This document shows, in pieces, positions 14,490-52,754 of a DNA stretch of 60,425 nt (positions are counted from its first letter, which is position 1; each line of letters begins with the position of its first letter). The notes under the pieces were generated by a model. The model ran no database searches, was not told the DNA's origin, and was given only the letters and a program-made list of their open reading frames with translations. Location of the stretch: contig SYJV01000454.1 in the NCBI GenBank assembly GCA_005798335.1, positions 1 to 60,425 on the forward strand, read 5' to 3'. Both the position numbers and the translations under genes were made by a program. The DNA comes from Planctomycetaceae bacterium. GTDB taxonomy: Bacteria; Planctomycetota; Planctomycetia; Pirellulales; Pirellulaceae.

Positions 14490-15722
14490 GTGAACACAAA
14501 TAAGAAAACTGCTCGCAAGAAATTGCCATGGCGTTTGCTGCTGCCGGCAACTGTTATGCTGGGTTTAGTGGGCTGGTTAGCTTCGAGTTGGATGTTTTCG
14601 ACGACTTTAGTTTCGGTGGGCAAGATACATCGGGGCTCGATGCAGGTCAGCGTCGAGGAAGACGGCAAGACGCGCATCCGAGAACGGTACGTCGTCTCCT
14701 CGCCTCTGATGGGAAAGCTGGTACGCATTGAACTGCAAGCGGGAGATGCGGTCGTTGCTCGTGAGTCGATCGTGGCCACCATCCAACCTCCTGCTCCGGC
14801 GATGTTAGATCCTCGGCAGTTGGCACAAGCTGAATCCGCCGCGCAGGCAGCTCGCTTGGCGGTAGATCAAGCCAAATTCAAAGAGCACGAGCAGCGCGAG
14901 CAACAATCGTTGGCCGAGAAAACGCTTGATCGATTGCAGCGCTTGGGCTCCACGGTTGCTCAGCAAGATTTGGAATCTGCCGAAACCGATTATAGATCGT
15001 ATGTGGCTACTGTTTCTGCCGCGTGTCTGGCGACACAGATCGCCGATTTCCAGTGGCAACAGGCTCAGGCGGCACTACTTCACTTGCGGTCCGACGAGGC
15101 GACACGGACGAACTACGGTTCAGGCCTGTTCCAGGTTCAGTCGCCGGTCAGTGGCAAAGTCTTGCGAGTCATGCAGGAGAGTTCGTCTGTCGTGCAAGCA
15201 GGAACTCCGCTGTTGGAATTGGGGAATCCTGCGGACTTGGAAATCGAAGTCGATGTGCTATCCAGTCAAGCGGTGCGCATCGCGGTCGGTAACCAAGTCA
15301 TCATAGAGCATTGGGGCGGCGACGTGCCGCTGCACGGAGTTGTTCGTCGAGTGGAACCGGCTGGGTTCACTAAGATCTCAGCTCTGGGAGTTGAAGAACA
15401 ACGCGTGAATGTCATCATCGACTTTGTTGAGCCCTTCGCACAGCGCGCTACGCTCGGCGATGCCTATCGCGTCGAAGCGAGTATCGTGGTGTGGAGCGCT
15501 GAAGACGTATTGCAAGTTCCGACCGGTGCCCTGTTTCGCACTCAAGATCAATGGTCGGTATTCGCTATCGTCAACGGAATTTTGCAACTGCGCGAGATAC
15601 AAATCGGCCAGCGCAATCGTCACTCCGCGCAAGTGCTGCGTGGTTTGAACGAAAACGAAAACGTGGTCCTGCATCCAACCGACCAACTCCAACCAGGCAT
15701 ACGTGTTCGTGAGCAACCGTGA
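14490..15722 (+). CDS. HlyD-family membrane fusion protein
   Basis: Periplasmic adaptor of 410 residues, anchored by one N-terminal helix (about 13-35). The order is standard: a first biotinyl/lipoyl-like half (SSPLMGKLVRIELQAGDAV, about 70-90), a coiled-coil hairpin rich in Ala, Gln and Glu (about 110-205), the second lipoyl half (VQSPVSGKVLRVMQESSSVV), then beta-barrel and membrane-proximal domains. The start is the GTG at 14490, with no clear Shine-Dalgarno. It follows the ATPase and permease genes in the same direction, although separated by a 515-bp repeat-bearing gap. It would couple the ABC pump to an outer-membrane channel; no TolC-like gene is in the window. Confidence 0.88.
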   Translation: MNTNKKTARKKLPWRLLLPATVMLGLVGWLASSWMFSTTLVSVGKIHRGSMQVSVEEDGKTRIRERYVVSSPLMGKLVRIELQAGDAVVARESIVATIQPPAPAMLDPRQLAQAESAAQAARLAVDQAKFKEHEQREQQSLAEKTLDRLQRLGSTVAQQDLESAETDYRSYVATVSAACLATQIADFQWQQAQAALLHLRSDEATRTNYGSGLFQVQSPVSGKVLRVMQESSSVVQAGTPLLELGNPADLEIEVDVLSSQAVRIAVGNQVIIEHWGGDVPLHGVVRRVEPAGFTKISALGVEEQRVNVIIDFVEPFAQRATLGDAYRVEASIVVWSAEDVLQVPTGALFRTQDQWSVFAIVNGILQLREIQIGQRNRHSAQVLRGLNENENVVLHPTDQLQPGIRVREQP

Positions 15723-16529
15723 TGTGCGCGTTACTCGACGGGATGAGCCACAGCCCAGAGGCGGACTGGAGTGTAGATGTACAAAGCCAAGGCAGACTAG
15801 CGCCCCAAAATACTCAATGGGGTGTGTCGAGATTGGCGGATTTGGGTGGATTGCGAAGTGGAGGGTGCGCAGCGATCGGAGCGAAGCACCCCACCCAAAC
15901 CCGGCGCGGCGGGTGTGGACAATCCCTGCAAGCTACTTTGTCGTCGCTTTGCAAGCGTTGGCTTTGCGCCACGGATGTGTGGCGGCTGGCTCTTGGCCTT
16001 GGTTGGATAAAATCAGCTTGCTTGGCGCTGATCGAGGCAATCGAGCGGTACTCGGTTCGGTGTGAGTCGTCTTGTATCTCAGCTCGCGGTCGCCGACGAA
16101 TAACCTTAGGCGACCCTCAACTGCGCCATCACCAAGACGCTTTGTTTGAGTTCCACGCCAGTGTCATGGCTCAACTGAAAGAACGCATTGTGCCAACGCA
16201 CGGTCCTGTCGTTCCGTACCACACGCTCTTCGTGCACAACTGGAGTCCGCGGCAAGTCATGCTCGGCAGTCACTGGGCGATGCATGTCGGTCGATCGCGC
16301 GGCGGTCTAGGCGAAGTGAATGCAGCGATACAAAGATCGGCCGATGATTCACCGATTGGTCGACGCCCATTTCGAGCGGAATCGAGATCGATCAACGGAT
16401 GATCGCGTCCGTTCTTGGCTGCGCGATCTCGTAAAACTCATGGGTGTGCACCTATCCACTGCACGCTAATTTAATGCAGATCACCGCATTTGGGGGCTAA
16501 CTTTCTTTTCGAAATATATATAATACCGT
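15723..16529. other. Gene-poor stretch without assignable gene
   Basis: One open frame (15719-16402, plus strand, up to 227 codons) runs through part of this region. Its first half is low-complexity repeat-like sequence (GGGTGCGCAGCG...GCACCC, self-complementary), and its second half (about 16130-16400) resembles nothing I recognise. It may be a decayed gene. An AT-rich stretch with TATAAT at 16519-16524 ends the region, just before the riboswitch. Confidence 0.4.
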
Positions 16530-16703
16530 AATCGCGCCGCCTAATCGCACTTTTCTCGTAAAGGTACGAGCGGGGGAACCAATTGGCATGTCGACCGTGT
16601 TCGGTCGCTGTGCTACGGGGCTCAGGTTTAAGAACCGGAGAGTATTCCAATCTCTAGCCCGTCAGCTAACCTCGTCGGCCGATTGCGGGATGGTCTCGCA
16701 ATC
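16530..16703 (+). promoter_or_regulatory. ydaO-type cyclic di-AMP riboswitch with possible expression platform
   Basis: The conserved landmarks of the ydaO/yuaA aptamer appear in order. They are GCCTAAT at 16539, a hairpin closing on AAAGGTACGAG (16560-16570), the invariant GGGGGAACC (16572-16580), GGGGCT near 16617, an AGAG...CTCT hairpin (16640-16655), and AGCCCGTCAGCTAACCTCG (16656-16674). P1 can form between 16530-16539 and 16676-16684 (AATCG/CGATT and GCCG/CGGC, one bulge). A second hairpin, GATTGCG...CGCAATC (16681-16703), re-uses the 3' strand of P1, so the two are mutually exclusive. A TATAAT lies just upstream (16519-16524). The next gene, an SPFH protein, starts about 345 nt downstream. 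Ligand identity follows from the family, not from data here. Confidence 0.85.
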
Positions 16704-17047
16704 ACGGAAAGCAGCTCATGAGCTGTCTGGCGCAATTCTTTTTGGGTTGCTCAAAATATTCATGTTAGTGAATTCACTCAGTTAAGTTTGTTTCGTTCTG
16801 GCTTTGACGCAGCGCTCTTGTGTAACACCGGGCCGGTAGACGCTCGGCGTACGTTGCTCCATTACAGGCCGTCGCGGACTTTTATTGTGAAAGTCTCGAC
16901 ACTGCCGGCGATGGGGCGACGGTAGAACATCCGCGCGATGCTGGTCTGTGTCGTTCAGTACCGTTAATGTCTCTGCCGGATGCTTACATACATACTTTTC
17001 TGAAGAATTTTCGAACACATTGCGGCAGCCCAAGTTGGAGGTCGACG

Positions 17048-18367
17048 ATGGATTATTTGAATCGATTGGTCGTGATTGCTGGCCTGGGAACTTGTGGAGC
17101 ACTTTTCAGTTTCCAATCCGCGGAGAAGCTTCAGAGATTAGATGTTGCCGATTCGATGCGACAGTTAGATCTTATGGCAGATAGCGGTGAAGTTCGCGCT
17201 CGATTGATGGAACAGCATCACCGCCGGAGCCACTGGCGATTGGGCTGGGGAGTGGTACTAATAGGAGCTGCCCTCGGTTTCATGTTCGAGTCGATCATAG
17301 CCGTGGCTCGTCGCTGTGGTCTGATCGGGCTGGTCCTGCTGCTGGTCACGTCCAGTGGATGCTGGCGACCGTTCGAGCCTGTGAAATTGGAAGTCATCCA
17401 GCCCAATGAGGAGGCCTTTCTTTTGCCGTTCACCGAATCCGTGGATAAGCAGCAGTCGACGCACACGGAGGAATACTTGCGTAGAAATTTGGTACATACC
17501 CAACAAGTGAAAATTCCGCAGCAATGGGTTCCGAAAGGATACGAAACGGTCTTCTCAAACGGTCAATGGCGAGATGCGGCGATTCTCGTTCGAGTGGACA
17601 AATCCCCGGTTACTCGCGAATGGACTGCTGATCCCAACAGCGGTACCAGCACGAAGAACGAGGCGATTTGGGTGATGACCAGCGATCAAGTAGAGTTCTC
17701 AACCGGATGGACATGCACCGCGCGAATCGCCTCGCGCGACGACGCGGTGAAGTTCTTGCATAACTATCCCAACGGCGCACTGACGCAAGTGATGGATCAG
17801 GAAATCCGAGCCAAACTACAAAGCTCCTTTGGTATCGAGGTCACCGACCTGCCGATGGAAGAACTTCGTCTGAAGGCGACTCCTCACATTCAGTCGGTGG
17901 TCGCCGGAGTCACCGAGTTCTTTTCGGAGCGCGGAATCACCATCACCAACCTGGGAATTAGCGGCGGCTTTGTCTACAAGGATCCTTCCATCATCAAGAT
18001 GCTGGTCGAGGTCTTCAACGCAGAGCAAAAGAAGGCCATCGCCATGGCCGAAACTTCCGCGCAAATCGAGAAGAACAAGACGATCCAGTTGGAAGCCGAT
18101 TCTCGCGCCAAAGCACTTTTGACAGAACGTGAAGCTGAGGCGGAAGGCATTCGCCTGGTTGCCGACGCCAAAGGATATGAGATTGAAAAAGCCGCCGAGG
18201 ACTCCCAAGTCTATCTCGACCTCAAGCGTATTGAGTTGGAAAAAGCCAAGCTAGAAAAATGGGACGGACGATTCCCAACTTATTTCATGGGAGGAGCGAA
18301 TGGTTCGCTCGATATGCTGCTGCAAGCTCCAGCTATAGCAGAACATCGAGCCGAATCGCTCAAGTAA
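17048..18367 (+). CDS. SPFH/band-7 domain membrane protein
   Basis: Prohibitin/flotillin-like protein of 439 residues. Two hydrophobic segments (about 5-22 and 65-80) precede a third (about 90-103) that ends in a lipobox-like S-S-G-C (Cys105). The band-7 region follows (about 108-300), with VKLEVIQPNEEAFLLP at its start. Then comes a long charged helix rich in Ala, Glu and Lys (about 310-410; AEQKKAIAMAETSAQIEKNK, EREAEAEGIRLVADAKG) typical of the SPFH coiled coil. The start at 17048 has a good Shine-Dalgarno (TTGGAGG). An internal ATG at 17282 would give a plain lipoprotein signal peptide, and AGGAGC lies about 12 nt before it. It is the first gene downstream of the ydaO-type riboswitch, so it may be regulated by it. 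Confidence 0.85.
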   Translation: MDYLNRLVVIAGLGTCGALFSFQSAEKLQRLDVADSMRQLDLMADSGEVRARLMEQHHRRSHWRLGWGVVLIGAALGFMFESIIAVARRCGLIGLVLLLVTSSGCWRPFEPVKLEVIQPNEEAFLLPFTESVDKQQSTHTEEYLRRNLVHTQQVKIPQQWVPKGYETVFSNGQWRDAAILVRVDKSPVTREWTADPNSGTSTKNEAIWVMTSDQVEFSTGWTCTARIASRDDAVKFLHNYPNGALTQVMDQEIRAKLQSSFGIEVTDLPMEELRLKATPHIQSVVAGVTEFFSERGITITNLGISGGFVYKDPSIIKMLVEVFNAEQKKAIAMAETSAQIEKNKTIQLEADSRAKALLTEREAEAEGIRLVADAKGYEIEKAAEDSQVYLDLKRIELEKAKLEKWDGRFPTYFMGGANGSLDMLLQAPAIAEHRAESLK

Positions 18368-33415: not shown

Positions 33416-34918
33416 CTACGGGGGAAACTGCAGGACGATTTCCAAAGGAATCAGTTTACCGAGATGTTCTTCCAGCCAACGATAATCCTGCAAAATTCTC
33501 GCTCGACTATCGAAGAGTTTTAACAAGTCGATGCTGGAGCGAGCATGAAATATGCCGCTGCCGATGCCAGCCGATATTAACACGCATATAGCACCGACCC
33601 AACCGTAGTGTCGAATCGTAAACTCGGCCAACCAACGCCAGATCCTGGTAGAATCAGAACCCGAAGCGATAGTTGCATGCTCGCGGTTTCTGTTTGCGGA
33701 CCTCGCCCACCTCTTACCGACGCCACTATACTGCAATGCTGCCGGCATCACCGCGTAAACGATGAAAATCAGCGCCATCACTCCTGCCGCCGAGTACACG
33801 CCGAACTTCTTGATAGGGACTAACTCACTGACGAACAGCGAGAGTAGGCCCACTGCCGTAGTTACCGAACATAGGAACGCGGGTTTCCAAGCCAAACCTA
33901 CCGCTCGTTCCGCAGCACCGTCGAAGCCGCCCGAGACAACCGCTTCGCGATAGTAGCTGACCAAATGGATTGCCCCCGATATCGCCAGCACGTAAACAAG
34001 AGACGGCATCGACATCAAGATTGCATCAAGGTTCTGCCCCGTTAACCAAACAATAGCAAGCGAAGTTGCGCCGCTTAAAACTGCGCACAGGAAGACGATC
34101 GAAGTCAATAGGACGCTCCGCAGGGACCACCAGGCCAGCCCGATTCCTAGCAGTCCGGAATAGCCGGCTAATCGAATTAGCGTTCTTTCTCCTTCCTCAT
34201 CGATCGCACAGTTGTCGACCGGCGGGCCTCCCATATGTAGGTCATCCTGCTGAACACCGGCCTTGCTGACTAGACGTCGTATCAGCCCAGGCGGCTGGTC
34301 GGCCCCGATCACACTTCGTCGGCCATTGCCGAGCACCTCTTTTAACTCGGATATAGCCTCCGAACGCAGAGTTACGATTAAACACGTTTGCGTTTCGTTG
34401 GGGCCGATCATCGATCCCTGAAGTCGCTGAATTGCATCGGTCTCACTCAGATTCAACGATCCGTACATCATTCGATCAAGAACCGAGCGTCCAGTTTCCA
34501 CAGACTTGATGTACTTGCGAACTAATGCAGCGTCTTGTGCGCTCAGTTCGTCAGCGCTGAGAGCTCCTTCACTATCGTTACCATCTTCACTTGAATTGGC
34601 AGGGGTCAAATAGTCTGCAAGCTTGGCGATACGTGGATCGTCTTCCTTATCTGCCCCAAGCCCCAGTTCGCAGCCTCTCCAGCTAACAATTACAAATTGG
34701 TCGGCGGCAAAATGTTGTCGAAACCAAACCAGCCTCTGCGTCTGATCGAATGACTTTGGCAGCCAGTCTTCGACACGATTTTCATTGCTACTTATTGCTT
34801 TTCCAGCACTATAAAACACCAGCGGAATGGACAGCAGAGTAATGGACAGAATTACTCCGCTCCAATTCTGATAGAAGGTTGGCTTTCTGCTGACGCTTTT
34901 AGTTGATTCTTGTTTCAC
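33416..34918 (-). CDS. MMPL/RND exporter, N-terminal part ending at in-frame TAG
   Basis: The N-terminal 500 codons of an RND-superfamily (MMPL/HpnN-like) exporter. It has a first helix (about 20-40), a periplasmic domain (about 45-250), helices with the SSD-like arrangement (about 250-400), and a further helix near 425-445. It starts with GTG at 34918, overlapping the TGA of the upstream AcrB-type gene (GTGA). Translation stops at TAG (33416), but the same frame continues uninterrupted to 32003, giving a normal 971-residue protein if the stop is read as sense. The RND adaptor and pump genes upstream are probably in the same operon. Proteins of this class export lipids or hydrophobic molecules. 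Confidence 0.8.
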   Translation of the reverse strand: MKQESTKSVSRKPTFYQNWSGVILSITLLSIPLVFYSAGKAISSNENRVEDWLPKSFDQTQRLVWFRQHFAADQFVIVSWRGCELGLGADKEDDPRIAKLADYLTPANSSEDGNDSEGALSADELSAQDAALVRKYIKSVETGRSVLDRMMYGSLNLSETDAIQRLQGSMIGPNETQTCLIVTLRSEAISELKEVLGNGRRSVIGADQPPGLIRRLVSKAGVQQDDLHMGGPPVDNCAIDEEGERTLIRLAGYSGLLGIGLAWWSLRSVLLTSIVFLCAVLSGATSLAIVWLTGQNLDAILMSMPSLVYVLAISGAIHLVSYYREAVVSGGFDGAAERAVGLAWKPAFLCSVTTAVGLLSLFVSELVPIKKFGVYSAAGVMALIFIVYAVMPAALQYSGVGKRWARSANRNREHATIASGSDSTRIWRWLAEFTIRHYGWVGAICVLISAGIGSGIFHARSSIDLLKLFDSRARILQDYRWLEEHLGKLIPLEIVLQFPP

Positions 34919-37900
34919 CGAGCCTCCATTCGCTCATCGACGTACCGCTTGTCTTTTGTAAGGTATTGCTTGAAATCGTCAATAAGAGAGTACGTGACCG
35001 GAGTGGCCAGCAGGCTCAGCAACAGCGAAAGGGCTTGGCCGCCGATAATGACCTTGGCCATACTGGCTCGCGCGCTGGCACCGGGGCCTTGACCAAGCGC
35101 AATGGGAATCATAGCGGCGATCAGCATTACGGTCGTCATCAAAATTGGTCGCAATCGTGTATAATTGGCCTCCATGATCGCATCATATTTGTTCATGGAC
35201 ATGCGCAATTCGTTTGTCTTGTCAACTTGAAGAATGCCGTTCTTCTTGACTATGCCAATCAGCATGAAAATCCCGAACATCCCGTACAGATCCAGCGGCG
35301 TGCGAAACAACAACAACGACAATAGCCCGAACGGAATCGTCACCGGCAGAGCCGACAAAATGCTGATCGGATGTATCCAACTTTCAAACTGAGCCGCGAG
35401 AATCAGAAACATAAAAGTCACGCTCAGTCCCAGCGCAACAAGAAAATAGTAGGCTGTTTCATTCAGCATGTCAGCCTGGCCGCCATAAACGATGCCATAT
35501 TCGGGCGGCAAGTTCATTTCCGCCACGCATTGATTCGCATAGCGAACCGCATCGTTCAGCGAAACTTCGTCGGGGTGAGCCATGATTGTCACGGTTCGCT
35601 GACGATTGAGCCGGTCGATTTGACTGGGGCCTTGCTTCTCCTGAATCGTGGCCATGCTCCCCAGTTCGATCGAGCCGGACTTCGGCGACTGAATCGACAG
35701 TGAAAGGAGATCCTTCGAGTCGGTGCGAAAACGCTTGTCGGCGCGCAACCAAACGTCGTATTGCTCCGTGTTCTCGTTGTAGGTCGAAACGATCTGACCA
35801 CCCACCAGTACGTTCAGCGAATTAGCAATCGTTTGCACCGGTACGCCCAAATCCATCGCCCGTTCTCGATCGATCACCACTTGCAGTTCCGGCTTTCTCA
35901 TCGACAGCGTCGAATCGATATCGACCAGCCCCGGAAGTTCTTGAAGCCGCTGTCGCAACTCGTCCGCGTACTGGGCCAACTTCGCAACCTCAGGGCCTTG
36001 GAGGCTGAGCTGAAAGATGCGAGTATCGCCGTTCGGGCCACTGCCGATGGCCGATACGTCCGAGACTGCGGTGCGCAGGTCAGGATACTCCTTCAGGATC
36101 TCGCGAGCCAAACGCATCACATCAAATTGACTGTACGAGCGATCTTCGAGGTCGACCAACCGCAAGTAGATCGAGCCACGCGTCACGTCTCCTTGCCCTT
36201 TGGCGCCGGACTGTCCTATTGAGACAAAGCGATGCACCACTCCCGGGAGATTCGCGAGCCGACTCTCGATTTCGTCGACCACCTGCTTGGTCCGCTCAAG
36301 CGTATAGCCTTCGGGAGTAATGAAACTGACCTGCATTTCGCTTTGGTCGTCGCGCGGAACCATATTTGCGCCCAAGTTCATGGCGATGGGAATTGACGAC
36401 GCCACCGTCAGCAACGAGATCAGCACCGTCAGCCATCGATGGCGCAACGACCAACGCAATGACATGCCGTAGATTCCTTCAACGGCTTGATAAATCCAAC
36501 CCGACTTGGAATGGACTTGCCCCGAAACACTTTTCTCAAGTTTAAGAAACCTCGAACACAGCATCGGCGTCAATGTAAATGAGACAAACAGGCTGGTCAT
36601 GATTGCGAAGGCCACGGTCAACCCAAAGCTGCTGAAGAATCGCCCGACGATGCCTCCCATGAACGCGATCGGCACAAAGATCACGACCAGTGAAAGACTG
36701 GTCGCCAACACGGCCAGCGAAATCTCGCGCGTGCCGATGCTGGACGCCGTCATGGGATCCAATCCGTTCTCTTCGATATGCCGAAATATGTTCTCGTGAA
36801 CCACGACCGCGTCATCGATCACGATACCGATGGCCAAGATCAACCCCAGCATCGTGATGTTATTCAGCGTAAAACCCATGTACTGCATAAACAAAAAAGT
36901 CGGAATGATGGACGTCGGAATCGCGAGCGTCGCGATAATGGTCGTTCGCCAATCTCGAATGAATAGCAAAATGGTAGCGCCCACGAGAATGGCCGCCAGC
37001 AGAAAGTGGAATCGGACCTCTTCCATCGACTGGCGAATGAACCGCGACTGATCTTGAGTCAGCTCGATCTGTATATCCGGCGGCAGTGTTTTGCGAATGC
37101 GTTCCAAGCGAGCTTGAACGGCGTCTGAGATCGCGACCGTATTTGTCCCGGATTGTTTCTGAACGAATAAGCTGACCGCATTCCGTCCATCCAACCTGCT
37201 CTCGCCCCTTGGCTCCTCGACGGAGTCTTCTGCGGAACCGATGTCTCTGATTCGAATCGGGTACCCGCTCCGATTGGCCACTATCAGGTCATTGAATTTC
37301 GCCGAAGTTGGAATGCGTCCCAGCGTTCGCACAACCATCTCGCGCGGTCCTTGATCGACGATGCCGCCGGGCAACTCCAAGTTTTGAGCCGCCAAGGCTT
37401 GGCGCACTTCCTCCACGGAAATCCCGTACGACTTCAGGCGATCGATATCGACGCGGACGTTAATCGCGCGCCTTCTGCCGCCCGTGAGAAAAACATTGCC
37501 GACGCCAGCGACGTTCTGCAATTGTTCGAGTACCTGTCGTCGAGCAATCTCGGTGACCTCGCGAATGTCTCGGTTGCCCGAAACTCCGATCGTGATGATC
37601 GGGGCCGCATCCAAATCAAACTTGTTTACTAGCGGTGTTTCAATGTCCTCTGGCAACGAGCGCAAGACCGACGAGATCTTGTCGCGCGCCTCCTGAGCAC
37701 CTACGTCGCCGCTCTTTTCAAGGACGAAGCGCATGATGATGGTCGAGCTGCCTTCGCGCGTTATCGATCGGATCTCGTCAACGCCGGAGATCGTGTTCAG
37801 GACTTCTTCGAGCGGCTTCGTGACCGTGCGTTCCATTTCCTCAGCACTAGCGCCCGGCAACATCGATGAAACGGAGATGATTGGAAAGTCGATTTTTGGA

Positions 37901-38013
37901 AATAAGTCGACTCCCAACTCAAAGTACGAGACCATGCCGAGAACGACAGGAATCACCACCAGTACCCATGTGAACACTGGGCGTCGAATGCAGATATCGG
38001 AGATACTCATCAA
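34915..38013 (-). CDS. RND efflux pump, AcrB/HAE1-type inner-membrane subunit
   Basis: Proton-driven exporter of 1032 residues. It has the usual twelve helices and two large periplasmic loops. Helix 4 carries the paired aspartates (GIVIDDAVVV, about 405), and helix 10 the lysine (GIVKKNGIL), as in AcrB. It overlaps the adaptor stop by 4 nt (ATGA) and is overlapped by the MMPL start, so the three are translationally linked. The substrate is not deducible; the family exports drugs, dyes or lipids. An outer-membrane channel gene is not nearby. Confidence 0.95.
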   Translation of the reverse strand: MMSISDICIRRPVFTWVLVVIPVVLGMVSYFELGVDLFPKIDFPIISVSSMLPGASAEEMERTVTKPLEEVLNTISGVDEIRSITREGSSTIIMRFVLEKSGDVGAQEARDKISSVLRSLPEDIETPLVNKFDLDAAPIITIGVSGNRDIREVTEIARRQVLEQLQNVAGVGNVFLTGGRRRAINVRVDIDRLKSYGISVEEVRQALAAQNLELPGGIVDQGPREMVVRTLGRIPTSAKFNDLIVANRSGYPIRIRDIGSAEDSVEEPRGESRLDGRNAVSLFVQKQSGTNTVAISDAVQARLERIRKTLPPDIQIELTQDQSRFIRQSMEEVRFHFLLAAILVGATILLFIRDWRTTIIATLAIPTSIIPTFLFMQYMGFTLNNITMLGLILAIGIVIDDAVVVHENIFRHIEENGLDPMTASSIGTREISLAVLATSLSLVVIFVPIAFMGGIVGRFFSSFGLTVAFAIMTSLFVSFTLTPMLCSRFLKLEKSVSGQVHSKSGWIYQAVEGIYGMSLRWSLRHRWLTVLISLLTVASSIPIAMNLGANMVPRDDQSEMQVSFITPEGYTLERTKQVVDEIESRLANLPGVVHRFVSIGQSGAKGQGDVTRGSIYLRLVDLEDRSYSQFDVMRLAREILKEYPDLRTAVSDVSAIGSGPNGDTRIFQLSLQGPEVAKLAQYADELRQRLQELPGLVDIDSTLSMRKPELQVVIDRERAMDLGVPVQTIANSLNVLVGGQIVSTYNENTEQYDVWLRADKRFRTDSKDLLSLSIQSPKSGSIELGSMATIQEKQGPSQIDRLNRQRTVTIMAHPDEVSLNDAVRYANQCVAEMNLPPEYGIVYGGQADMLNETAYYFLVALGLSVTFMFLILAAQFESWIHPISILSALPVTIPFGLLSLLLFRTPLDLYGMFGIFMLIGIVKKNGILQVDKTNELRMSMNKYDAIMEANYTRLRPILMTTVMLIAAMIPIALGQGPGASARASMAKVIIGGQALSLLLSLLATPVTYSLIDDFKQYLTKDKRYVDERMEAR

Positions 38014-39494
38014 CGAGCCTCGACGGTTTCAGTCGCGTCGGCAGCCTTCGAGCCTCCAGCCTGCGTCGCGCTCGCGGTCGGCGCTCGTTCGACGACGGCG
38101 ATACCTTGCGACAGCATGCGCTGGCCGCTGGTGACTACTTGCAATTTTGGGTCAATAGAATTCGACAAGACTTCAACCCATTCGCTCGTTTGGTCTCCCA
38201 ATTCGACCTTGTGCTCTTGCGCCCGACCACTGTCGATCAGGAAGATCTTGTTGATTCCAGCCAGCGAATAGAGCCCCGACAGCGGTATCGTAATCGCGTT
38301 TTCCTGGTGCCCGACGACGATATTCGCGCGAGCGAAACTTCCCGGTTTAAGTTGCTGATGTTCATTGGTGATTTCGACTTCAACTGCGAAGGTACGCGTG
38401 GATCGATCGATCGCGGGACTTACTTTGGCCACTTTGCCCGTAACAGGCTCGGCTGCTGCGTCAGTCGTCACGACTACGGATTGGCCTACTTTGACCAGCT
38501 TCGCGTGAATTTCTGGAATCGCGAGTTTTAGCTTTAGACTGCTTCCTAGAAACAGACGAAAGAGTTCCGCACCGACGCGCACAAAGGCACCTTCCGAAAC
38601 CATGCGCTCACTGATCGTATAGACGGGATCCGTCGCACTGTCCACGATGGTGGGAACCGGAACGCGAATCTCGCAATCCAGCAAGCGTTGTTTGGCAACT
38701 GCCAATTCCGCGCTCCGCAACCGCGCCACCGCCGCTGCTGATTTCGCTTGCAGCAACTGATTGTTCCATTCGCTGTCCAGCACCTGGGCCTCAGATTGGG
38801 CATGCTCAAGGTCCTCTTCGCTGATCGCGTTCGTGACGCGTAAACGCAACATGCGATTCAATCGAGACGTCGCCAATTCAAAGCGCAAGCGGGCCGAGAC
38901 GACAGGCGGCAAACGGCTGAGATCCTCCGTCGGCGATGGGACACTGTCGAATCCCCACCTAGCCAACTCAGTTTGGACGCTACGTTCGGATTGGTCGACA
39001 GTCAGCTTCGCGTCCGTGGCGTCCAGCTCCAACAGCAGTTCGCCCGGACGCACGAAGTTGGACAAGTCATGATGGATGCGGACGACTCGTCCCTCCACTT
39101 TGGAACTGACAGCCACTTCCTCAAAGCCGTGCAATGTCCCCACGGCACTGACCGTTCGCTGCAATGCGCGAATCGTGATTGGCTCACTGGTGACAAAGAC
39201 GGATGCGTGTTGCGTAGAAGGTGAAGTATCTTTTTTGTCGATTACGACTGGCGAGCCCTCACCCGATCCGCCGGGAACAAGAACTCGTCCCGCAACGAAC
39301 GCCAAGCCAAGCGATGAAAGCCACAGTGCTCCGACCAGCCAAGGGTTTTGTGTTATGGATGAAGCAATCTGTAGTTGCGAAACGTCTGTGGCAATCCTGC
39401 CAAGTTGCATAATATCCGCGTCAGATCCAGGATCTTTCAGATGGTGTGAACCATGCTTCTCGTCTTTCGGTTTGTGCATCAACGGGAGATTCAT
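38010..39494 (-). CDS. RND efflux periplasmic adaptor (HlyD/AcrA family)
   Basis: Membrane-fusion partner of the pump encoded immediately downstream. It has an N-terminal polar segment, a helix (about 50-68), the first lipoyl half (VSSKVEGRVVRIHHDLSNFVRPGE), a coiled-coil hairpin (about 170-260), and a beta-barrel with GKVAKVSPAIDRSTRTFAVEVEI and GSFARANI. The frame is open up to 39557, but the extra 21 codons (with GCPYGTK) are read from the palindromic repeat array, so I place the start at ATG 39494; ATG 39479 is also possible. No convincing Shine-Dalgarno is visible at any of them. The stop overlaps the pump start by 4 nt. Confidence 0.85.
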   Translation of the reverse strand: MNLPLMHKPKDEKHGSHHLKDPGSDADIMQLGRIATDVSQLQIASSITQNPWLVGALWLSSLGLAFVAGRVLVPGGSGEGSPVVIDKKDTSPSTQHASVFVTSEPITIRALQRTVSAVGTLHGFEEVAVSSKVEGRVVRIHHDLSNFVRPGELLLELDATDAKLTVDQSERSVQTELARWGFDSVPSPTEDLSRLPPVVSARLRFELATSRLNRMLRLRVTNAISEEDLEHAQSEAQVLDSEWNNQLLQAKSAAAVARLRSAELAVAKQRLLDCEIRVPVPTIVDSATDPVYTISERMVSEGAFVRVGAELFRLFLGSSLKLKLAIPEIHAKLVKVGQSVVVTTDAAAEPVTGKVAKVSPAIDRSTRTFAVEVEITNEHQQLKPGSFARANIVVGHQENAITIPLSGLYSLAGINKIFLIDSGRAQEHKVELGDQTSEWVEVLSNSIDPKLQVVTSGQRMLSQGIAVVERAPTASATQAGGSKAADATETVEAR

Positions 39495-39500
39495 TAGTAA

Positions 39501-39760
39501 GATGCTTTTTGTCCCGTAGGGACAACCTGTTGGTAGAGAAATGATTGCGGAATGCATGTTGTCCCGTAGGGACAGGCTGTCGGGAGAACAACGTCTGCGT
39601 TATAAATCTCGTTGGCCATTCCTAATTCTTGCCATATTGTGTTCCCATGGCACGGTTGGTTGAAATCGATCATCGCGTTCTACCAACATGCTGTCCCTAC
39701 GGGACAAAAATTGCGTTATGCGATCGTCTTTCTACCAACATGCTGTCCCTACGGGACGCA
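39501..39760. repeat. Array of four TGTCCCTACGGGACA palindromes, head-to-head
   Basis: Four copies of a 15-bp palindrome with conserved left flank (TACCAACA[TG]G) occur at 39510-39524, 39560-39574, 39692-39706 and 39744-39757. The first two units point one way and the last two the other, so the array is itself an inverted repeat. It lies between the nuoN 3' end and the adaptor gene start and runs into the latter's open frame. It fits a REP-like dispersed family. Confidence 0.7.
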
Positions 39761-39768
39761 GCAGCCGT

Positions 39769-41220
39769 TCACATCCATGTGGGTACTATAAACCAAACTA
39801 GAGTCATGCAAGCGCAAAAAACGCAAGTTACTATCGCTGGCTTGTCCGTAAGAGTTGTTAACGACACGTTTTTCCAAGCCGTCGTTGACGAATTAAGCCG
39901 GATCAAAATATCAACGTAGTAGATCGCCCCAATCGCCGCATTGATTGCCATGAATACCGCAGCAAATAACAAAAGTCTGTCTCCCGGTGTCAGCAGGCCT
40001 CGAAAGATCTCAAACTTGGCCCAGAATCCGGCGGTAATGGGAATGCCAATCAAACTCAACACACAAATCGACAGCGAAATTCCAAGCCACAAATTGGTAC
40101 TTGTCAAACCGTTGAGATCATTCAGTTCGACATCCTGATCGGTTCGAGCTCGCAGGGTCGAAATGCCTGCGAAAAAGCCAATCGTCATGATCACGTAGGC
40201 GGCCAAATAGACTAACACGGCCCTCGACGAAGCTCCTTGAACCAGCAACGCGGCTAGACCAAGCATGATGTAGCCGGAGTGCGCGATGCTGGAATAAGCC
40301 AACAGCTTGCGGCATTGCGACTGAACAAGAGCTAGACAATTTCCCAAGGTCATCGTCGCGAGTGCAAGCAATATCAACGTCGTCAATGCCACTGGCACAA
40401 GCGCGGCATTCAGTGTTGGACCACCCAGCAGCTTGATCATGGCAACAAAGCCCGCAATTTTCGGAATCGTCGAGAGCATGGCCGCCATGGGTAGTGAGCT
40501 GCCGGAGAAAACGTCTGAAGCATAGAAGTGAAACGGAACTGCGGTCACTCGGAAAGCTAAACCCGCTATGACCAATACGAATCCGATGTACGCCATCGTC
40601 GACGAGTTCGCACCAATCGCGCGCACCAGGCCATCGATCGACGTTGTGCCCGCCAACCCGAACAAGTACGACGCACCCATCAAGAAAATGGCTGACGAAA
40701 ACGCGCTCAAGGCGAAGTATTTGAGAGTGGCTTCGCGCCCCGCATTGTCGCGTCGACTGATCGACAGCAAGAGCACGGTCGGAATGCTGATCAATTCCAA
40801 ACTCAAATACAACGAGGTCAAGTTGGACGACGCGGTAACTAGAGCGAGTCCCGCAATGAGGAACAACAGGCAACTGTGAAACTCACACGCATGCCGCGAT
40901 GGAGCCTTGTTGATTGTCAGCGCGGTGATTAGACAGCCTGCCAGCAACGCCAAATGCGTACCGCTACGACTCAAGAGGTCTGTCCGGAAGAGAGACGATG
41001 CGTATTCGACTTGAGTGCTACTGAATAACCAACTGCCCCAAATCACAAGCAACACGGCCAAACTGCCCCATGCCCAACCGTGTCCGTGCGATTCGTTGGC
41101 AGCCTGAGGACTCGGAGCTTGAAACAGTCCAATCGCCAGCAGGATACAACCGGCGGCGATCAGTCCGAGCGCCGGAAAAACTGGAATCAGATTGTTTAGC
41201 ATTTCTTGTGTGATGATCAT
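39769..41220 (-). CDS. nuoN: NADH-quinone oxidoreductase subunit N
   Basis: Antiporter-like proton-pumping membrane subunit of complex I (483 residues, about 14 helices). The family motif region has LLAYSSIAHSGYIMLGLAAL, and conserved lysines for proton transfer are visible in SMLSTIPKIAGFVAMIK. The start ATG overlaps the nuoM stop by 4 nt. It is the last gene of the 14-gene nuo operon. Its 3' end runs into the palindromic array, which may serve as transcript end. Confidence 0.95.
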   Translation of the reverse strand: MIITQEMLNNLIPVFPALGLIAAGCILLAIGLFQAPSPQAANESHGHGWAWGSLAVLLVIWGSWLFSSTQVEYASSLFRTDLLSRSGTHLALLAGCLITALTINKAPSRHACEFHSCLLFLIAGLALVTASSNLTSLYLSLELISIPTVLLLSISRRDNAGREATLKYFALSAFSSAIFLMGASYLFGLAGTTSIDGLVRAIGANSSTMAYIGFVLVIAGLAFRVTAVPFHFYASDVFSGSSLPMAAMLSTIPKIAGFVAMIKLLGGPTLNAALVPVALTTLILLALATMTLGNCLALVQSQCRKLLAYSSIAHSGYIMLGLAALLVQGASSRAVLVYLAAYVIMTIGFFAGISTLRARTDQDVELNDLNGLTSTNLWLGISLSICVLSLIGIPITAGFWAKFEIFRGLLTPGDRLLLFAAVFMAINAAIGAIYYVDILIRLNSSTTAWKNVSLTTLTDKPAIVTCVFCACMTLVWFIVPTWM

Positions 41221-42917
41221 CGCAAATCCTGCTGAGTCGAATTTGTAGAACGGGCACTCTTGCCCGTTGCAGCAAAATTGACGGGCAAGAGTGCCCGTCC
41301 TACAACATTTATCGACGTGTCGGTCCTTGCGACCGAGCTAGTGGAGCGACTGATAGGAACACCTGCTTTGATGAAGTCGATCGCGGGCTGAGGAAAACAG
41401 CCAATGGCTAAACACAATGTGGCAAAGACAGTAAGAGTCGCCGTCTCTCGCGTGGCCAGATCGGACGAGACAGACACTTTGCGTGCAACCTTGGTTTGCG
41501 TTTCGGTCGCGAACAACAGATTACGAGCCATCAGCAAGGCGTACCATGCACCCAGAATAATCCCAGACGTGCCAACTACCGTTAGAATCGGATGGCGGGT
41601 CATCATGCCACTGAGCGCCATCAGCTCGCCAACGAAATTGTTCAACCCGGGTAAACCAGCACCTGCGAATGTAAAAAACAAGAACAACACAGCTAGTCTT
41701 GGATAATTGTCCGCGATCCCGTTCCCAGAAGATTTGATATCTGCCGAACCAAGTCGCGTTATGATGCAACCGGCAAGCAGAAACATCGCGGCCGTCGTGA
41801 TGCCATGATTGAACATCTGCAGCGCGGCGCCCGTCAAGCCCTCTTCGCTGAGCGAAAACATTCCCAGGCTGATAAAACCCGCGTGGCTGAGACTGCTGTA
41901 CGCGAGGATGAGGCGGATGTCCGTTTGAGCCAAAGCCGCTAATGCGCCGTAGACGATCGCGATAGCTCCCAGCGTGCCCAGGATGCTCGAAGCGTAAGCC
42001 TCCGAAGCAAGCGGTGTCAGGGGCAACGCGATCCGCAGAAAGCCGAAGAAACCAAGCTTGAGCACGACAGCCGCTAGCAGGCAGGTCGTCGTCGGATGTG
42101 CTGAGCGGTAAGTGGTCGGCAGCCAGGTATGCAGTGGAAGCAAGGCTACTTTGATTCCAAGGCCAATCGCGAGCAGCGCAAATATCCAAGTCTCACCAGC
42201 AAGTGTGGCAGTGGCTCGCATTTCGCTGGCGCGTTGAGACAACTCTTCCAAGAGTACCGTCGGACCATGTGCGGTGGGATAAAGGTAAACTATTCCAATC
42301 AATGCGAGCACCATCGGAATGCTTCCCGACAGCGTATACAGTACAAATCGTTGAGCAACTTGCCGACGGTCGTCGTCGCCCCAACCGGAGATCAGGACCA
42401 GCAGTGGCAGCAGCGCCAACTCGAAACCAATGTAGAAGAGAACGAGATCCATCGACAAAAAAACCGTTTGCAGTCCAGCTTGGCTGAGAAGTATCCAACC
42501 GGCGTACGACACGAAATGTTGCTCGATACTCGAAAGAGCAAACACTATCACCGCGAACGTTACCAAGGCGGTAAGCAACACCATCGCTGCCCCTAGACCG
42601 TCGGCGCCTAGCGCCAATTGCAGCCGCAGACCGCTGTCCGGTTGAAAGGACAACCAAGTCGGTTGGAACTTGATCGTGGGGCTCACCACAGCGCCCGTGA
42701 AACCAGGCTTTTCCAGACCCTGGGTAACGGACGGAACGCTGTTACCCTGCGCGGCCACCACCACTACCAACATCAAACTGAGCAACAAACTCAGCGCAGC
42801 CAGCACGATGGCCGCTTGCCTCGGCAGCGCCGAATGTACGTTCTGCCGAGCAGCCACTAACAGCCAGGTTCCTCCAATTAGAGGAACAAGAATCAACATC
42901 GGAATCATGCCGCTCAT
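41217..42917 (-). CDS. nuoM: NADH-quinone oxidoreductase subunit M
   Basis: Antiporter-like membrane subunit of complex I (566 residues). It has the expected sequence core: IGFELALLPLLVLISGWG with the conserved Glu, LLPLHTWLPTTYRSAHP, ILAYSSLSHAGFISLG and LPGLNNFVGE. Beyond the family end (about residue 525), a tail of about 35 residues includes VGRALLPVNFAATGKSA, which is the translation of the palindromic repeat at 41244-41304. The start at 42917 follows the nuoL stop by 43 nt. Confidence 0.95.
   Translation of the reverse strand: MSGMIPMLILVPLIGGTWLLVAARQNVHSALPRQAAIVLAALSLLLSLMLVVVVAAQGNSVPSVTQGLEKPGFTGAVVSPTIKFQPTWLSFQPDSGLRLQLALGADGLGAAMVLLTALVTFAVIVFALSSIEQHFVSYAGWILLSQAGLQTVFLSMDLVLFYIGFELALLPLLVLISGWGDDDRRQVAQRFVLYTLSGSIPMVLALIGIVYLYPTAHGPTVLLEELSQRASEMRATATLAGETWIFALLAIGLGIKVALLPLHTWLPTTYRSAHPTTTCLLAAVVLKLGFFGFLRIALPLTPLASEAYASSILGTLGAIAIVYGALAALAQTDIRLILAYSSLSHAGFISLGMFSLSEEGLTGAALQMFNHGITTAAMFLLAGCIITRLGSADIKSSGNGIADNYPRLAVLFLFFTFAGAGLPGLNNFVGELMALSGMMTRHPILTVVGTSGIILGAWYALLMARNLLFATETQTKVARKVSVSSDLATRETATLTVFATLCLAIGCFPQPAIDFIKAGVPISRSTSSVARTDTSINVVGRALLPVNFAATGKSARSTNSTQQDLR
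41244..41304. repeat. Palindrome inside 3' end of nuoM
   Basis: Arms 41244-41267 and 41281-41304 are reverse complements at 23 of 24 positions (TGTAGAACGGGCACTCTTGC outer part). It is read through in frame and forms most of the NuoM C-terminal tail. Confidence 0.75.
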
Positions 42918-42928
42918 ATCGTTTTGTC

Positions 42929-42977
42929 TTAGCCCCGAAAAACGTTAGCCCCGAAAAACGCTAGCCTCGTAAAAACG
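42929..42977. repeat. 16-17 bp tandem repeat at nuoL stop
   Basis: TTAGCCCCGAAAAACG occurs twice (42929-42944, 42945-42960). A related third unit (42961-42977) is the end of the nuoL coding sequence itself, so the last codons and stop of nuoL have been tandemly copied downstream. Confidence 0.7.
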
Positions 42978-44919
42978 CCAAAGCCACCAAGGCGACGATT
43001 CCCAATGCCATCGTCAAAGCATAGTTGGGCAATACGCCCGTCTGATAGGTACGCAACCTGCCGCCAATCGCTGACGGAATCGTCGCACCACGGCGAATTA
43101 CACGGTCGATGAACTGCGAATCGAAAATCCCAACCATTTTGGACAAGTGTTGAGTTGGTGCAACAAGGCAGAAGTAGAACACTTCATCCAAATAAAAGCG
43201 GTTGGAAGTTAGCTCTGCAAATCGCGCGGGCACGCCACTGCGTTTGGCCGCTACGCCGCTGGTCGAAATTGAATAGTAAGCGATCGTCGCACCCGCCATC
43301 ACTAAACCAACCGAAGCGATCACCAACCACCAACCCGCGTGCGGATGAGCATGCGGGTCAGTCAAAAATGGAATCGGTAGCACGAACTCGGCGAGTGCAC
43401 CGGTCGAGGCGATCACAAGTCCGATCAGCGCGCTGCCCACTGCGAGAATGTACAGAGGAGCCAGCATCATGGCCGTTGCTTCATGAGGGTGCGCCCCGGC
43501 CTGAGCCGGCAATTTCACATCACCCCAAAACGTGCGCAGGTAAGCTCGAAAAGTGTAGATGGCGGTCAACAGCGTCGACAGCAATCCCATGAAAAGCCAA
43601 ATCGCAAAAACAGAACCATATTGTGGATTGCCAATCTCAAGCGTCAGTAAACCAAGTATGCCCTCTTTACTCCAAAATCCCGCCAACGGTGGCGCTCCCA
43701 CGAGTGCCAAAGCGCCAATCAAAAACAGAATGTGCGTCGAGGGGAGAACTTTGCGAAGGCCGCCAAATTTACGCATGTCGATACAATCGCCCATCGCATG
43801 CATCACGTTTCCAGCCGTGAGAAATAGCAATGCCTTAAAGAACGCGTGCGTGATCAAATGAAACATGGCCGCGACGACCGCCAGTGGCAACAACTCTCCA
43901 TTGACTCCAGCGCCAAAGGCCAAAAATAGCAGACCGAGTTGGCTGACGGTCGAGTAGGCGAGCACTCGCTTGAGATCATCTTGAAAGAGCGCGATCAAAC
44001 CGCCCAACACAGCCGTAATTGCCCCCAACCAGCCCGCGATCAGTAACACGTCTGGAGTCAATAATAACAATGGCGACATGCGCGCGAGCAAATAAACTCC
44101 TGCGGTGACCATCGTCGTGGCGTGAATCAGCGCGCTCACCGGTGTTGGTCCTTCCATCGCATCGGGCAGCCATACATGGAATGGAAACTGAGCCGACTTG
44201 CCGATCGCTCCAATCAACAGCAACAATCCAACCCACCACAAAAGATCTGGCTGCCGCTGGGCCAGCGCAGGGACCGCATCAAAGATCACGTCAAAGTCAA
44301 GTCTACCCACGGTCGCAAGATTCTCAGCTCCAACCAAACCTATTCCATGCCACAACAACAAGATGCCAACCAGGAAGGCACAGTCGGCCAATCGATTCAC
44401 CAAGAACGCTTTCATCGCCGCTTTGGCAGCGCTCGGACGCCGGTACCAATGGCCGATTAAGAGATAGCTGCACAGGCCCACGCCTTCCCAAAACGCATAC
44501 AACACGAACAAATTCCCGACCAGCACCAGCATCACCATCGCAAACACGAAGGCGCTGATAATTGCAAAAAAACGAGCGTAGCCAGGATCGCCCAACATAT
44601 AACCGCGCGCGTAAACGGCCACCAACAGCGAAATGCACGTGACGACATTCAACTGAATCAAGCCGATTCCATCCAGCCGTGCTGTAATCGGAACATGCAT
44701 GCCACCCAGGCTCAACCATGTGTAACCTTCAGTAATTGCAACATGCACGCCACCCTGACTGGTAAAGAGCAAGATCAGAGAAACCGCTGACGAGATAGAC
44801 AGCCCGACAATGGTGGGCACATGCGCCAGCTCTGCACCTTTGCGAAAAAGGCAAATCAACACACCGGCCAACAACGCCAACATCAGTACCAGTGGTATCA
44901 ACCAAACTAAGTTCAACAT
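42961..44919 (-). CDS. nuoL: NADH-quinone oxidoreductase subunit L
   Basis: Largest antiporter-like subunit of complex I (652 residues from ATG 44919), including the C-terminal lateral helix region that runs along the membrane arm. Core motifs include FAFWEGVGLCSYLLIGHWY, HVWLPDAMEGPTPVSALIHATTMVTAG, VLAYSTVSQLGLL, and HAFFKALLFLTAGNVMHA. The frame also allows a TTG start at 44946 next to the palindrome; the ATG is preferred because the usual hydrophobic N-terminus begins there and GGGA lies just upstream. Confidence 0.95.
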   Translation of the reverse strand: MLNLVWLIPLVLMLALLAGVLICLFRKGAELAHVPTIVGLSISSAVSLILLFTSQGGVHVAITEGYTWLSLGGMHVPITARLDGIGLIQLNVVTCISLLVAVYARGYMLGDPGYARFFAIISAFVFAMVMLVLVGNLFVLYAFWEGVGLCSYLLIGHWYRRPSAAKAAMKAFLVNRLADCAFLVGILLLWHGIGLVGAENLATVGRLDFDVIFDAVPALAQRQPDLLWWVGLLLLIGAIGKSAQFPFHVWLPDAMEGPTPVSALIHATTMVTAGVYLLARMSPLLLLTPDVLLIAGWLGAITAVLGGLIALFQDDLKRVLAYSTVSQLGLLFLAFGAGVNGELLPLAVVAAMFHLITHAFFKALLFLTAGNVMHAMGDCIDMRKFGGLRKVLPSTHILFLIGALALVGAPPLAGFWSKEGILGLLTLEIGNPQYGSVFAIWLFMGLLSTLLTAIYTFRAYLRTFWGDVKLPAQAGAHPHEATAMMLAPLYILAVGSALIGLVIASTGALAEFVLPIPFLTDPHAHPHAGWWLVIASVGLVMAGATIAYYSISTSGVAAKRSGVPARFAELTSNRFYLDEVFYFCLVAPTQHLSKMVGIFDSQFIDRVIRRGATIPSAIGGRLRTYQTGVLPNYALTMALGIVALVALAFLRG

Positions 44920-44946
44920 GTATCCCAGACTTTTCGTAAGTTCCAA

Positions 44947-45033
44947 GTACCAGCCCGAAGCGCCAGCGAGTGAATTCGGCGCACGGCATTCCCACGATTA
45001 ACCAATTCACTCGCTGGCGCTTCGGGCTAGTAC
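44947..45033. repeat. Palindromic element between nuoK and nuoL
   Basis: Arms 44947-44976 and 45004-45033 are reverse complements at 29 of 30 positions, with a 27-nt loop. The core CCCGAAGCGCCAGCGAGTG is closely related to the stem of element A (10316-10338). It would form a strong hairpin in the nuo mRNA. Confidence 0.8.
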
Positions 45034-45035
45034 TG

Positions 45036-45485
45036 TCATGCTTTCAATGTGTCAAGCGCTCCGTCCTTCGAAACCCTAACTGGATTCACCAGCGGATCGG
45101 TGCCCGCTGGAGTTAACACAGGGTAGGATTCGATCGGTTCGTTTTGCTCAACGGGGACTTCCACGTTTGCCTCGCGGTCCGTTTCCCGCAGGTCGCTCCA
45201 AGCCGCAATGTCCAAGGTGGCCTTGCGTTTGAACAGCGAGACGACCAGCGCCAAACCGATGGCGGCTTCACACGAAGCAATCGTCAGGATCAAAACGGCG
45301 AACAATTGTCCTTGATAGTTTTGATAATGGGCTCCAAACGCGATGAAGTTCATCGCCACTGCAGCCAACATGAGTTCGACGGACAAGAACATCAAGATCA
45401 TGTTCTTGCGAGATAGAAACCCAACTATGCCGATCGCGAACAGCGTGGCAGCAAGCATCAATGTCTGAAAAGTCGCGGGGTTCAT
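45036..45485 (-). CDS. nuoK: NADH-quinone oxidoreductase subunit K
   Basis: Small membrane subunit of complex I. Three helices occupy residues 1-90, with the conserved glutamates in FLSVELML and ASCEAAIGLALV that form the proton path. At 149 residues it is longer than the usual 100, because it has a polar C-terminal tail of about 50 residues (EANVEVPVEQNEPIESYP). It overlaps nuoJ by 4 nt (ATGA). Confidence 0.94.
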   Translation of the reverse strand: MNPATFQTLMLAATLFAIGIVGFLSRKNMILMFLSVELMLAAVAMNFIAFGAHYQNYQGQLFAVLILTIASCEAAIGLALVVSLFKRKATLDIAAWSDLRETDREANVEVPVEQNEPIESYPVLTPAGTDPLVNPVRVSKDGALDTLKA

Positions 45486-46078
45486 CGATTACCTCCAGGG
45501 CGTGCCGAGGCAACGCGCTTGGCAGTTTGTGCCGATGCGGAAGGGACAGGTACCAATGCGGGACTAACGTTTATGCCAGACTCTGTTTTTTCGGCGGGAT
45601 CGTTCTGCGCGTCCTGGGCAATGACAATCGCGGCTATCGTGGCGACCAGCAACAGCAATCCGACTATCTCGACCGTCCAGATGAAATCGGTAAACATCAG
45701 TTTGCCGAGTTCTGCGACTTGGGATGGGACGTGCGGCGCGGGAGGTTCGATAGAAATTTCCCGAATAGCTGCGAACAAGAAACTGAACAGCAGCATGCCT
45801 ATCACGATCGACCATACCGGAGCATTGCGACTGAGGTCGTAGAGTTGCAGACGACTACGTTGAGCGAACATCAACACGAACAGGAAGACGATAATCGTGG
45901 CGCCGGTGTAGACGATCATCGTCGCGGCAGCCAGATACGGGGCGTCGTTCATTACGAAGACGCCGCACGTGGCTAAGACAACTGCCGCAAAGCTTAGCGC
46001 CGAATAAATCGGCTGACGAAAAGCGAGGAATCCAACGCCCGCAAACACAGCTAGACAACTGTAGAAAAATAGTAACAT
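45482..46078 (-). CDS. nuoJ: NADH-quinone oxidoreductase subunit J
   Basis: Five-helix membrane subunit of complex I (198 residues), with the conserved LAAATMIVYTGATIIVFLFVLM (about 50-70) that contains the pi-bulge region of helix 3. A polar C-terminal tail of about 40 residues follows the last helix. It is one nucleotide from nuoI upstream and overlaps nuoK. Confidence 0.93.
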   Translation of the reverse strand: MLLFFYSCLAVFAGVGFLAFRQPIYSALSFAAVVLATCGVFVMNDAPYLAAATMIVYTGATIIVFLFVLMFAQRSRLQLYDLSRNAPVWSIVIGMLLFSFLFAAIREISIEPPAPHVPSQVAELGKLMFTDFIWTVEIVGLLLLVATIAAIVIAQDAQNDPAEKTESGINVSPALVPVPSASAQTAKRVASARPGGNR

Positions 46079-46079
46079 C

Positions 46080-47580: not shown

Positions 47581-47607
47581 GCTGGGCGCGATGATCGCCC
47601 GAAAGCC

Positions 47608-47928
47608 TTAAGCCGGCTGCGATGACGCTGGTCCAAACGGAACGACGGCGATGGCCATCATGGCACAGATAAGTCCGATGGTTGGAGCGATCAGATATAC
47701 CGGCTTCAGGACGTGCTGAGGGATGACTTGCTCTTTGAGGAAGATCTTGATTCCATCCGCCACAGCCTGCAACAACCCCGCTGGTCCGACGCGATTAGGG
47801 CCGATGCGATTTTGAATCAGCGCCGCCAGCTTGCGTTCGATAAAGGTCAAGTACAATCCCGCCAGGGGAATCACCACCAATACGATATTGATTGCCACCA
47901 GCAGCGGCCACAACTGTCCCCAACTCAT
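47608..47928 (-). CDS. nuoH: NADH-quinone oxidoreductase subunit H, N-terminal part ending at in-frame TAA
   Basis: The first 106 codons of NuoH: helix 1, then FIERKLAALIQNRIGPNRVGP (the conserved amphipathic region at the quinone entry), LLQAVADGIKIFLKE, and helix 2. It ends at TAA (47608-47610) in the loop before helix 3, after VVPFGPASSQPA. Reading the stop as sense restores a normal protein of about 395 residues continuing to 46741. A single base change from TAT or TAC would produce this TAA. The ATG shares one base with the nuoG stop. Confidence 0.85.
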   Translation of the reverse strand: MSWGQLWPLLVAINIVLVVIPLAGLYLTFIERKLAALIQNRIGPNRVGPAGLLQAVADGIKIFLKEQVIPQHVLKPVYLIAPTIGLICAMMAIAVVPFGPASSQPA

Positions 47929-49697: not shown

Positions 49698-49714
49698 TTA
49701 ATCTGTACCGTGCT

Positions 49715-52736: not shown

Positions 52737-52754
52737 AAGGATCCAATCCCACCT

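Follow-up and report, generated by a model that had tools for sequence, protein, structure and literature searches.

A bacterium of the Pirellulaceae carries, in a stretch of 60,425 nucleotides analysed here as a whole (the window), an element of the c-di-AMP (ydaO/yuaA) riboswitch class in the leader of a gene for an SPFH (Band 7) membrane protein, and we judge it likely that a c-di-AMP riboswitch at this position makes SPFH scaffolds part of the K+/turgor regulon. A riboswitch of this class with an SPFH target had been proposed in a sequence-only reading of the same DNA; the proposal is supported by the analyses below, in which the pairing turned out to be recurrent.

The aptamer and the SPFH gene behind it

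Compared with Rfam by Infernal (cmscan), as the sequence-only reading had suggested, the window matched RF00379 with a score above, and not below, the gathering score of 38 bits (E 5.3e-8). The match extended over the full model length (model positions 1-134). At gathering thresholds the 60-kb window gave no other Rfam match, and a search of the entire genome (8.46 Mb in 558 contigs, completeness 97.5%) yielded no second RF00379 copy. The covariance score of the window aptamer is modest, the 14 members found in the family spanning 41.3-60.4 bits. The ydaO landmarks had been described beforehand as lying in order with P1 closed, and both the RF00379 alignment and the sequence bear this out: the core blocks follow the consensus order (GCCTAAT from 16539, then the GGGGGAACC block, then CAGCTAACCTCG at 16663-16674), and GCC 16539-16541 pairs with GGC 16677-16679. 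The folding signal of the leader taken alone was weak, with z at -1.66 and 9 of 200 shuffles equally stable. By computation the element is a genuine member of the known c-di-AMP riboswitch class, for which ligand binding is predicted. The genome encodes one diadenylate cyclase domain (PF02457, 78.4 bits, a domain match), and the riboswitch was found in two of the 15 genomes of the window's genus.

Table 1. Features of the riboswitch leader and its gene in the window
Feature	Position	Strand	Basis
TATAAT, candidate -10 element for the riboswitch transcript	16519..16524	+	seen in sequence
c-di-AMP (ydaO/yuaA) riboswitch aptamer	16528..16696	+	RF00379, 47.7 bits; single copy in genome
Outer helix P0, 5' strand (GCGCC)	16534..16538	+	partner-swap tests
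Hairpin PA (10 bp, 3-nt loop), immediately 3' of P1	16681..16703	+	covariation
Purine segment GGAAAG, between PA and PB	16706-16711	+	
Second hairpin PB	16711..16726	+	minimum-energy folds; covariation not counted
Outer helix P0, 3' strand (GGCGC), followed by AATTCTTTTT	16729..16733	+	partner-swap tests, folds, sequence
GGAGG, likely ribosome-binding site	17037..17041	+	seen in sequence
Gene for the SPFH (Band 7) membrane protein (439 aa)	17048..18367	+	via relatives; no direct Pfam match

The aptamer occupies a predicted 5' leader position, with the SPFH gene downstream on the same strand. The most likely start of this gene is the ATG at 17048, the first good start on the riboswitch strand and preceded by the GGAGG motif; it lies 345 nt past 16703, in agreement with the distance of about 345 nt given earlier, and 315 nt beyond the outer helix P0. 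The next frame of more than 100 aa on the same strand starts at 19189, 0.8 kb past the SPFH gene, which therefore probably stands alone as a single-gene transcription unit. Just upstream of the riboswitch, a 227-aa open frame (15719-16402) showed no Pfam match and is possibly not a gene. Elsewhere, the window encodes an RND-type (AcrB family) efflux transporter accompanied by a HlyD-type partner (34918-39557) and, on the minus strand, a long cluster of nuo-type genes for respiratory complex I (39772-53984).

In the window protein, the N-terminal ~100 residues look membrane-spanning and are followed by a C-terminal domain; Gly-Cys at residues 104-105 is invariant. Searched by sequence, the protein itself matched nothing significantly in Pfam, NCBIfam or the PDB, and gave no direct Band_7 match. 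Band_7 was matched by four of the seven members of its family alignment (best E 1.2e-7) and by L114 alone against Pfam (E 1.9e-7); L114 belongs to the four relatives L112-L115, which share 35-37% identity with the window protein. The ortholog of Pirellulaceae bacterium Prado172, listed as both L020 and L127 with equal contig and coordinates, is 58% identical and likewise lies behind a riboswitch. The SPFH/band-7 label given in the sequence-only reading thus holds through relatives and not through a direct profile match to the window protein; judged by sequence, it is well supported but indirect. In a further locus (L146 967-2577, genome G366), the window-type protein, which is one frame in the window, appears split over two consecutive frames: a 145-aa ORF, judged by eye to resemble the N-terminal membrane part, is followed by the SPFH part as a protein of 350 aa whose start is lipoprotein-like.

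Riboswitch targets in the family and the phylum

RF00379 was found in 13 of 149 family genomes with 14 matches, counts that are a lower bound owing to the strict filters of the search. Nine of the 14 targets were SPFH genes, comprising seven flotillin-like ones of 722-845 aa (L017, L018, L021, L022, L024, L025 and L028) and two of the window type (the window and L020), and the remaining five were K+ transporter genes (four Kup, one TrkH). The phylum survey added 50 new riboswitches (51 matches in 46 of 392 genomes, with scores up to 99.9 bits), whose targets were sorted by tblastn with 21 query proteins, nine of them being Pfam-scanned together with that of the window. All 64 riboswitches taken together, 48 went with K+ transport, 12 with SPFH genes and four were left without assignment (L065, which lies at a contig end, L081, L088 and L105). 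The K+ targets consisted of TrkH (21, plus L109), KimA-like permeases (20, falling into a group of 14 and one of 6, from each of which one representative matched KimA in the PDB, with E 3.3e-59 and 1.1e-13) and Kup (6). The SPFH targets were flotillin-like in ten cases and of the window type in two, and SPFH was the only non-K+ target class seen more than once. Three SPFH cases (L060, L075 and L090) lay in two families other than that of the window, so that SPFH genes behind riboswitches are of two types and occur in three families. A one-off SPFH placement was ruled out by the two surveys. Among the ten flotillin-like proteins, which share 44-75% identity with L022, Band_7 was confirmed by Pfam in two (L022, E 2.9e-12; L060, E 5.6e-18). 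At L109 (G335), a riboswitch of 38.1 bits precedes PTS IIA-like, TrkH-like and TrkA-like frames, an assignment partly judged by eye.

A window-type SPFH gene was present in six and a flotillin-like gene in nine of the 149 family genomes. Riboswitch and SPFH gene occurred together in nine genomes, where about 1.3 were expected, and the riboswitch preceded the gene each time (Fisher p 3.9e-8, kinship uncorrected). Over the same genomes and likewise uncorrected for kinship, the association was significant for the flotillin-like genes alone (p 2.0e-7) and not for the window-type genes alone (two of six genomes, p 0.087). A diadenylate cyclase domain was detected in 143 of the 149 family genomes as against the riboswitch in 13, and most of the family must therefore use c-di-AMP through other effectors. 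The window genome contains two TrkH genes, with no RF00379 match in their 1.5-kb flanks, and Kup was not found in it.

In the stretches scanned, RF00379 was absent near six other family SPFH genes (four window-type, two flotillin-like), and also at L125, L126 and L146-L148. The same held for nine flotillin-like loci of the phylum (L129, L132 and L134-L140; L133, which overlaps L140, was left out), a set that includes remote homologues and loci truncated at contig ends, which puts the riboswitch in three of the 12 genomes of that comparison. Riboswitch-less family SPFH genes of both types (L112-L115, L123 and L124) are divergent from a neighbouring gene, and a sigma-54 interaction domain was detected in all four neighbours scanned (L112, L114, L123 and L124), with those of L113 and L115 showing by eye the same N-terminal sequence. 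As a side observation from sequence, these sigma-54-activator neighbours suggest an alternative control of SPFH function. Sigma-54 control of the riboswitch-less SPFH genes was rejected nevertheless, since promoter matches upstream of the gene were obtained at L123 (one mismatch) and L124 (two mismatches) only; the two-mismatch matches of L113 and L114 fall inside listed reading frames, L112 and L115 gave none in the promoter scan, and 3-6% of shuffles give a match.

An RNA alignment and tree were built from 12 of the 14 family RNAs, leaving out L016 and L028. The window RNA is nearest to that of L021, which precedes a congener's flotillin-like gene (68%), and then to L022 (67%), whereas the L020 RNA is nearest to that of the flotillin-like L017 (69%) and shares 46% with the window RNA. 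In the tree L017 and L020 were joined with a support of 96, the placement of the window being weak (49 and 38). Profile-profile comparison of the window-type and flotillin-like protein families revealed no usable similarity (probability 7.1 and 5.4%), and a PDB sequence search found no flotillin-like chain; the two SPFH types are dissimilar by sequence and may still have a common fold. In a flotillin tree of 19 rows, riboswitch-bearing genes appeared in several lineages among bare ones, the deeper joins being unsure. Two dissimilar SPFH types behind related RNAs suggest that the regulated quantity is SPFH function itself.

The extension around the aptamer

A hairpin of the PA type is possible directly 3' of P1 in 13 of the 14 family riboswitches, L016 being the one without it. 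Covariation was assessed in the seven hairpin-bearing members with equal spacing (L017, L018, L019, L020, L025 and L028 were left out), in which 98.6% of cells were paired and five of the ten pairs had changed on both sides, a count reached by three of 500 shuffles; the covariation score was reached by none of 500. P0 was spotted by eye and then tested by exchanging partner strands between sequences. With all 14 sequences, own partners had a mean of -7.54 kcal/mol and swapped partners one of -5.29 kcal/mol, and none of 20,000 permutations was as good. When the helix was restricted to its expected place and L027, a near-copy of L026, was left out (n=13), the values were -6.55 and -3.48 kcal/mol with none of 100,000 permutations as good, P0 being poorly formed in L016, L020 and L028. 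Outside the family P0 is weak at best (-5.13 against -4.53 kcal/mol, 480 of 20,000 permutations as good), as judged from 48 of the 50 sequences; L079 and L107, in which the flanking motif could not be located, were skipped.

The family order 3' of P1 is PA, the purine segment, often PB, and a strand pairing just 5' of P1. In minimum-energy folds with the aptamer collapsed to a loop, the P0-P1-PA-PB junction was obtained for the window, L019, L021, L023, L024, L026 and L027, and a longer variant of it for L018 and L025; PB-like hairpins were seen in several relatives. For L017 and L020, the folds placed P1, PA and a further hairpin within another or interrupted outer helix, L028 had an outer helix and PA without PB, and L022 folded otherwise. 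Relative to shuffles the folds had a mean z of -2.0 (range -3.5 to 0.1). As the extension (PA, mostly P0, often PB) occurs with both Kup and SPFH targets, the leaders sharing it probably follow the same regulatory logic. Outside the family, L105 (G253), which has no recognised target gene, shows a PA-like hairpin after P1.

Within ~20 nt before the aptamer, 13 of the 14 family members have TA-N3-T, and four of them (the window, L018, L025 and L028) an exact TATAAT. A two-hexamer promoter scan was empty at the TATAAT site of the window, with no -35 match. An expression platform built on an intrinsic terminator is typical of Firmicutes and is not needed for membership of the class. No such terminator was found in the window by a standard scan, so the typical platform was not encountered there; a looser scan gave weak candidates in seven of the 14 family members, the window included, and neither scan produced a convincing one. 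The relatives do not share the U-rich stretch (AATTCTTTTT) that follows P0 in the window.

Proposed regulation and relation to known systems

Transcription may start just after the TATAAT. Binding of c-di-AMP would fold the core and stabilise P1, beside which the P0/PA/PB junction would assemble, and the folded junction would change expression of the SPFH gene, with termination, Rho, translation or RNA stability as the possible last step. Characterised riboswitches of the class exert OFF control over K+ transporters, and an OFF switch is likely here by analogy with most of them (PMC6488665, PMC9960051): like the K+ importers, the SPFH protein would be made at low c-di-AMP and low internal K+, and would act as a membrane scaffold or quality-control factor through which the membrane adapts as K+ and turgor change. 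The sequence-only reading took the SPFH target to suggest a different use of the signal. This is borne out in so far as the SPFH target recurs, but not beyond this, since the same RNA type with its 3' extension precedes Kup in the family; the simplest reading is that SPFH proteins joined the usual K+/turgor regulon, possibly with the same direction of switching. A bolder version is tentative and in our estimate somewhat doubtful: planctomycete SPFH scaffolds would be a core c-di-AMP output after the K+ importers, with two unrelated types interchanging behind the same RNA and the family-specific P0/PA/PB junction serving as a new, terminator-free kind of platform for the class.

The riboswitch could be real and the SPFH gene an incidental neighbour, a K+ transporter once served having since been lost. 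The preponderance of K+ transport targets in the phylum (48 of 64) would fit this, as would the lack of Kup and the two TrkH genes without a detected riboswitch in the window genome; we regard it as unlikely, however, because SPFH genes of two types follow 12 of the 64 riboswitches in three families, the co-occurrence is strong (p 3.9e-8, kinship uncorrected) and the gene lies directly downstream on the same strand. Clearly less probable still is a decaying relic that has lost switching. Its score of 47.7 bits against a family best of 60.4, its presence in only two of 15 genomes of the genus and the lack of a clear expression platform might be expected of a relic, but the core blocks are intact and the flanking stems have been kept by compensatory changes.

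Intact blocks that match the consensus also speak against a change of ligand, by which the family aptamers would sense another nucleotide. The lower family scores, compared with up to 99.9 bits in the phylum, and the extended architecture would agree with such a change, to which we give very little weight given that K+ transporters make up five of the 14 targets in the family and that the cyclase domain is present in 143 of 149 genomes. A chance covariance-model match without any riboswitch, which the modest score and the weak folding signal of the leader alone might have suggested, was ruled out for practical purposes by the E-value (5.3e-8), the same arrangement at the L127 ortholog and the covarying flanks. 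The reading preferred here is that of a c-di-AMP riboswitch acting on an SPFH gene within the K+/turgor regulon.

To our knowledge, a clear physiological signal is still missing for bacterial flotillins and SPFH proteins. A conserved c-di-AMP sensor before SPFH genes, in bacteria that otherwise have this sensor chiefly before K+ transport genes, leads to the hypothesis that membrane scaffolding is tuned in step with K+ and turgor. Such a sensor would also extend c-di-AMP riboswitches to planctomycetes, and the RNA extension offers a target for probing. In the literature searched, which excluded the original 2010/2013 target lists, there was no report of c-di-AMP riboswitches in planctomycetes and no paper tying a ydaO-type riboswitch to SPFH, of which those lists may hold an earlier mention; titles and abstract openings of the c-di-AMP literature with Planctomycetes or flotillin likewise contained no riboswitch-SPFH link. 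The SPFH target class is recurrent and apparently unreported before. Surveyed targets of the class are described as ion, osmolyte and amino-acid transporters in Bacillales/Clostridia and as cell-wall genes in Actinobacteria (PMC9960051). In salt-stressed B. subtilis undergoing outgrowth, floT and floA were raised by sigma-W, and ktrAB is named as a riboswitch target (PMC5052260). YuaG belongs to the stress-responsive sigma-W regulon, and its deletion in B. subtilis left growth in high salt unimpaired according to unpublished data cited in PMC2636767, where a planctomycete SPFH subfamily with a poorly conserved domain is also described.

Compared with B. subtilis YuaG/FloT and E. coli YqiK (PMC2636767), the flotillin-like targets share Band_7/SPFH and the window protein does so via its relatives. 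Unlike these proteins as described there, the window gene sits behind a c-di-AMP riboswitch, and no NfeD-type partner was recognised beside it by a Pfam scan of its neighbours. With members of the ydaO/yuaA (kimA) class such as B. subtilis ydaO/kimA and B. thuringiensis kdpFABC (PMC6488665), the window element has in common the conserved core and the position in a 5' leader, and in the phylum, too, RF00379 mainly neighbours K+ transporters (KimA, TrkH and Kup kinds). It differs from these systems in its SPFH target and in the extra PA, P0 and, in the window's family, often PB; the kdp leader, moreover, is described as having an intrinsic terminator (PMC6488665), whereas the window has no clear one. 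Another member of the same class, the C. glutamicum nlpC riboswitch, resembles the window element in having a non-transporter target, in that case a cell-wall peptidase gene, and in a control that probably works independently of a terminator, which for nlpC is translational (PMC9960051).
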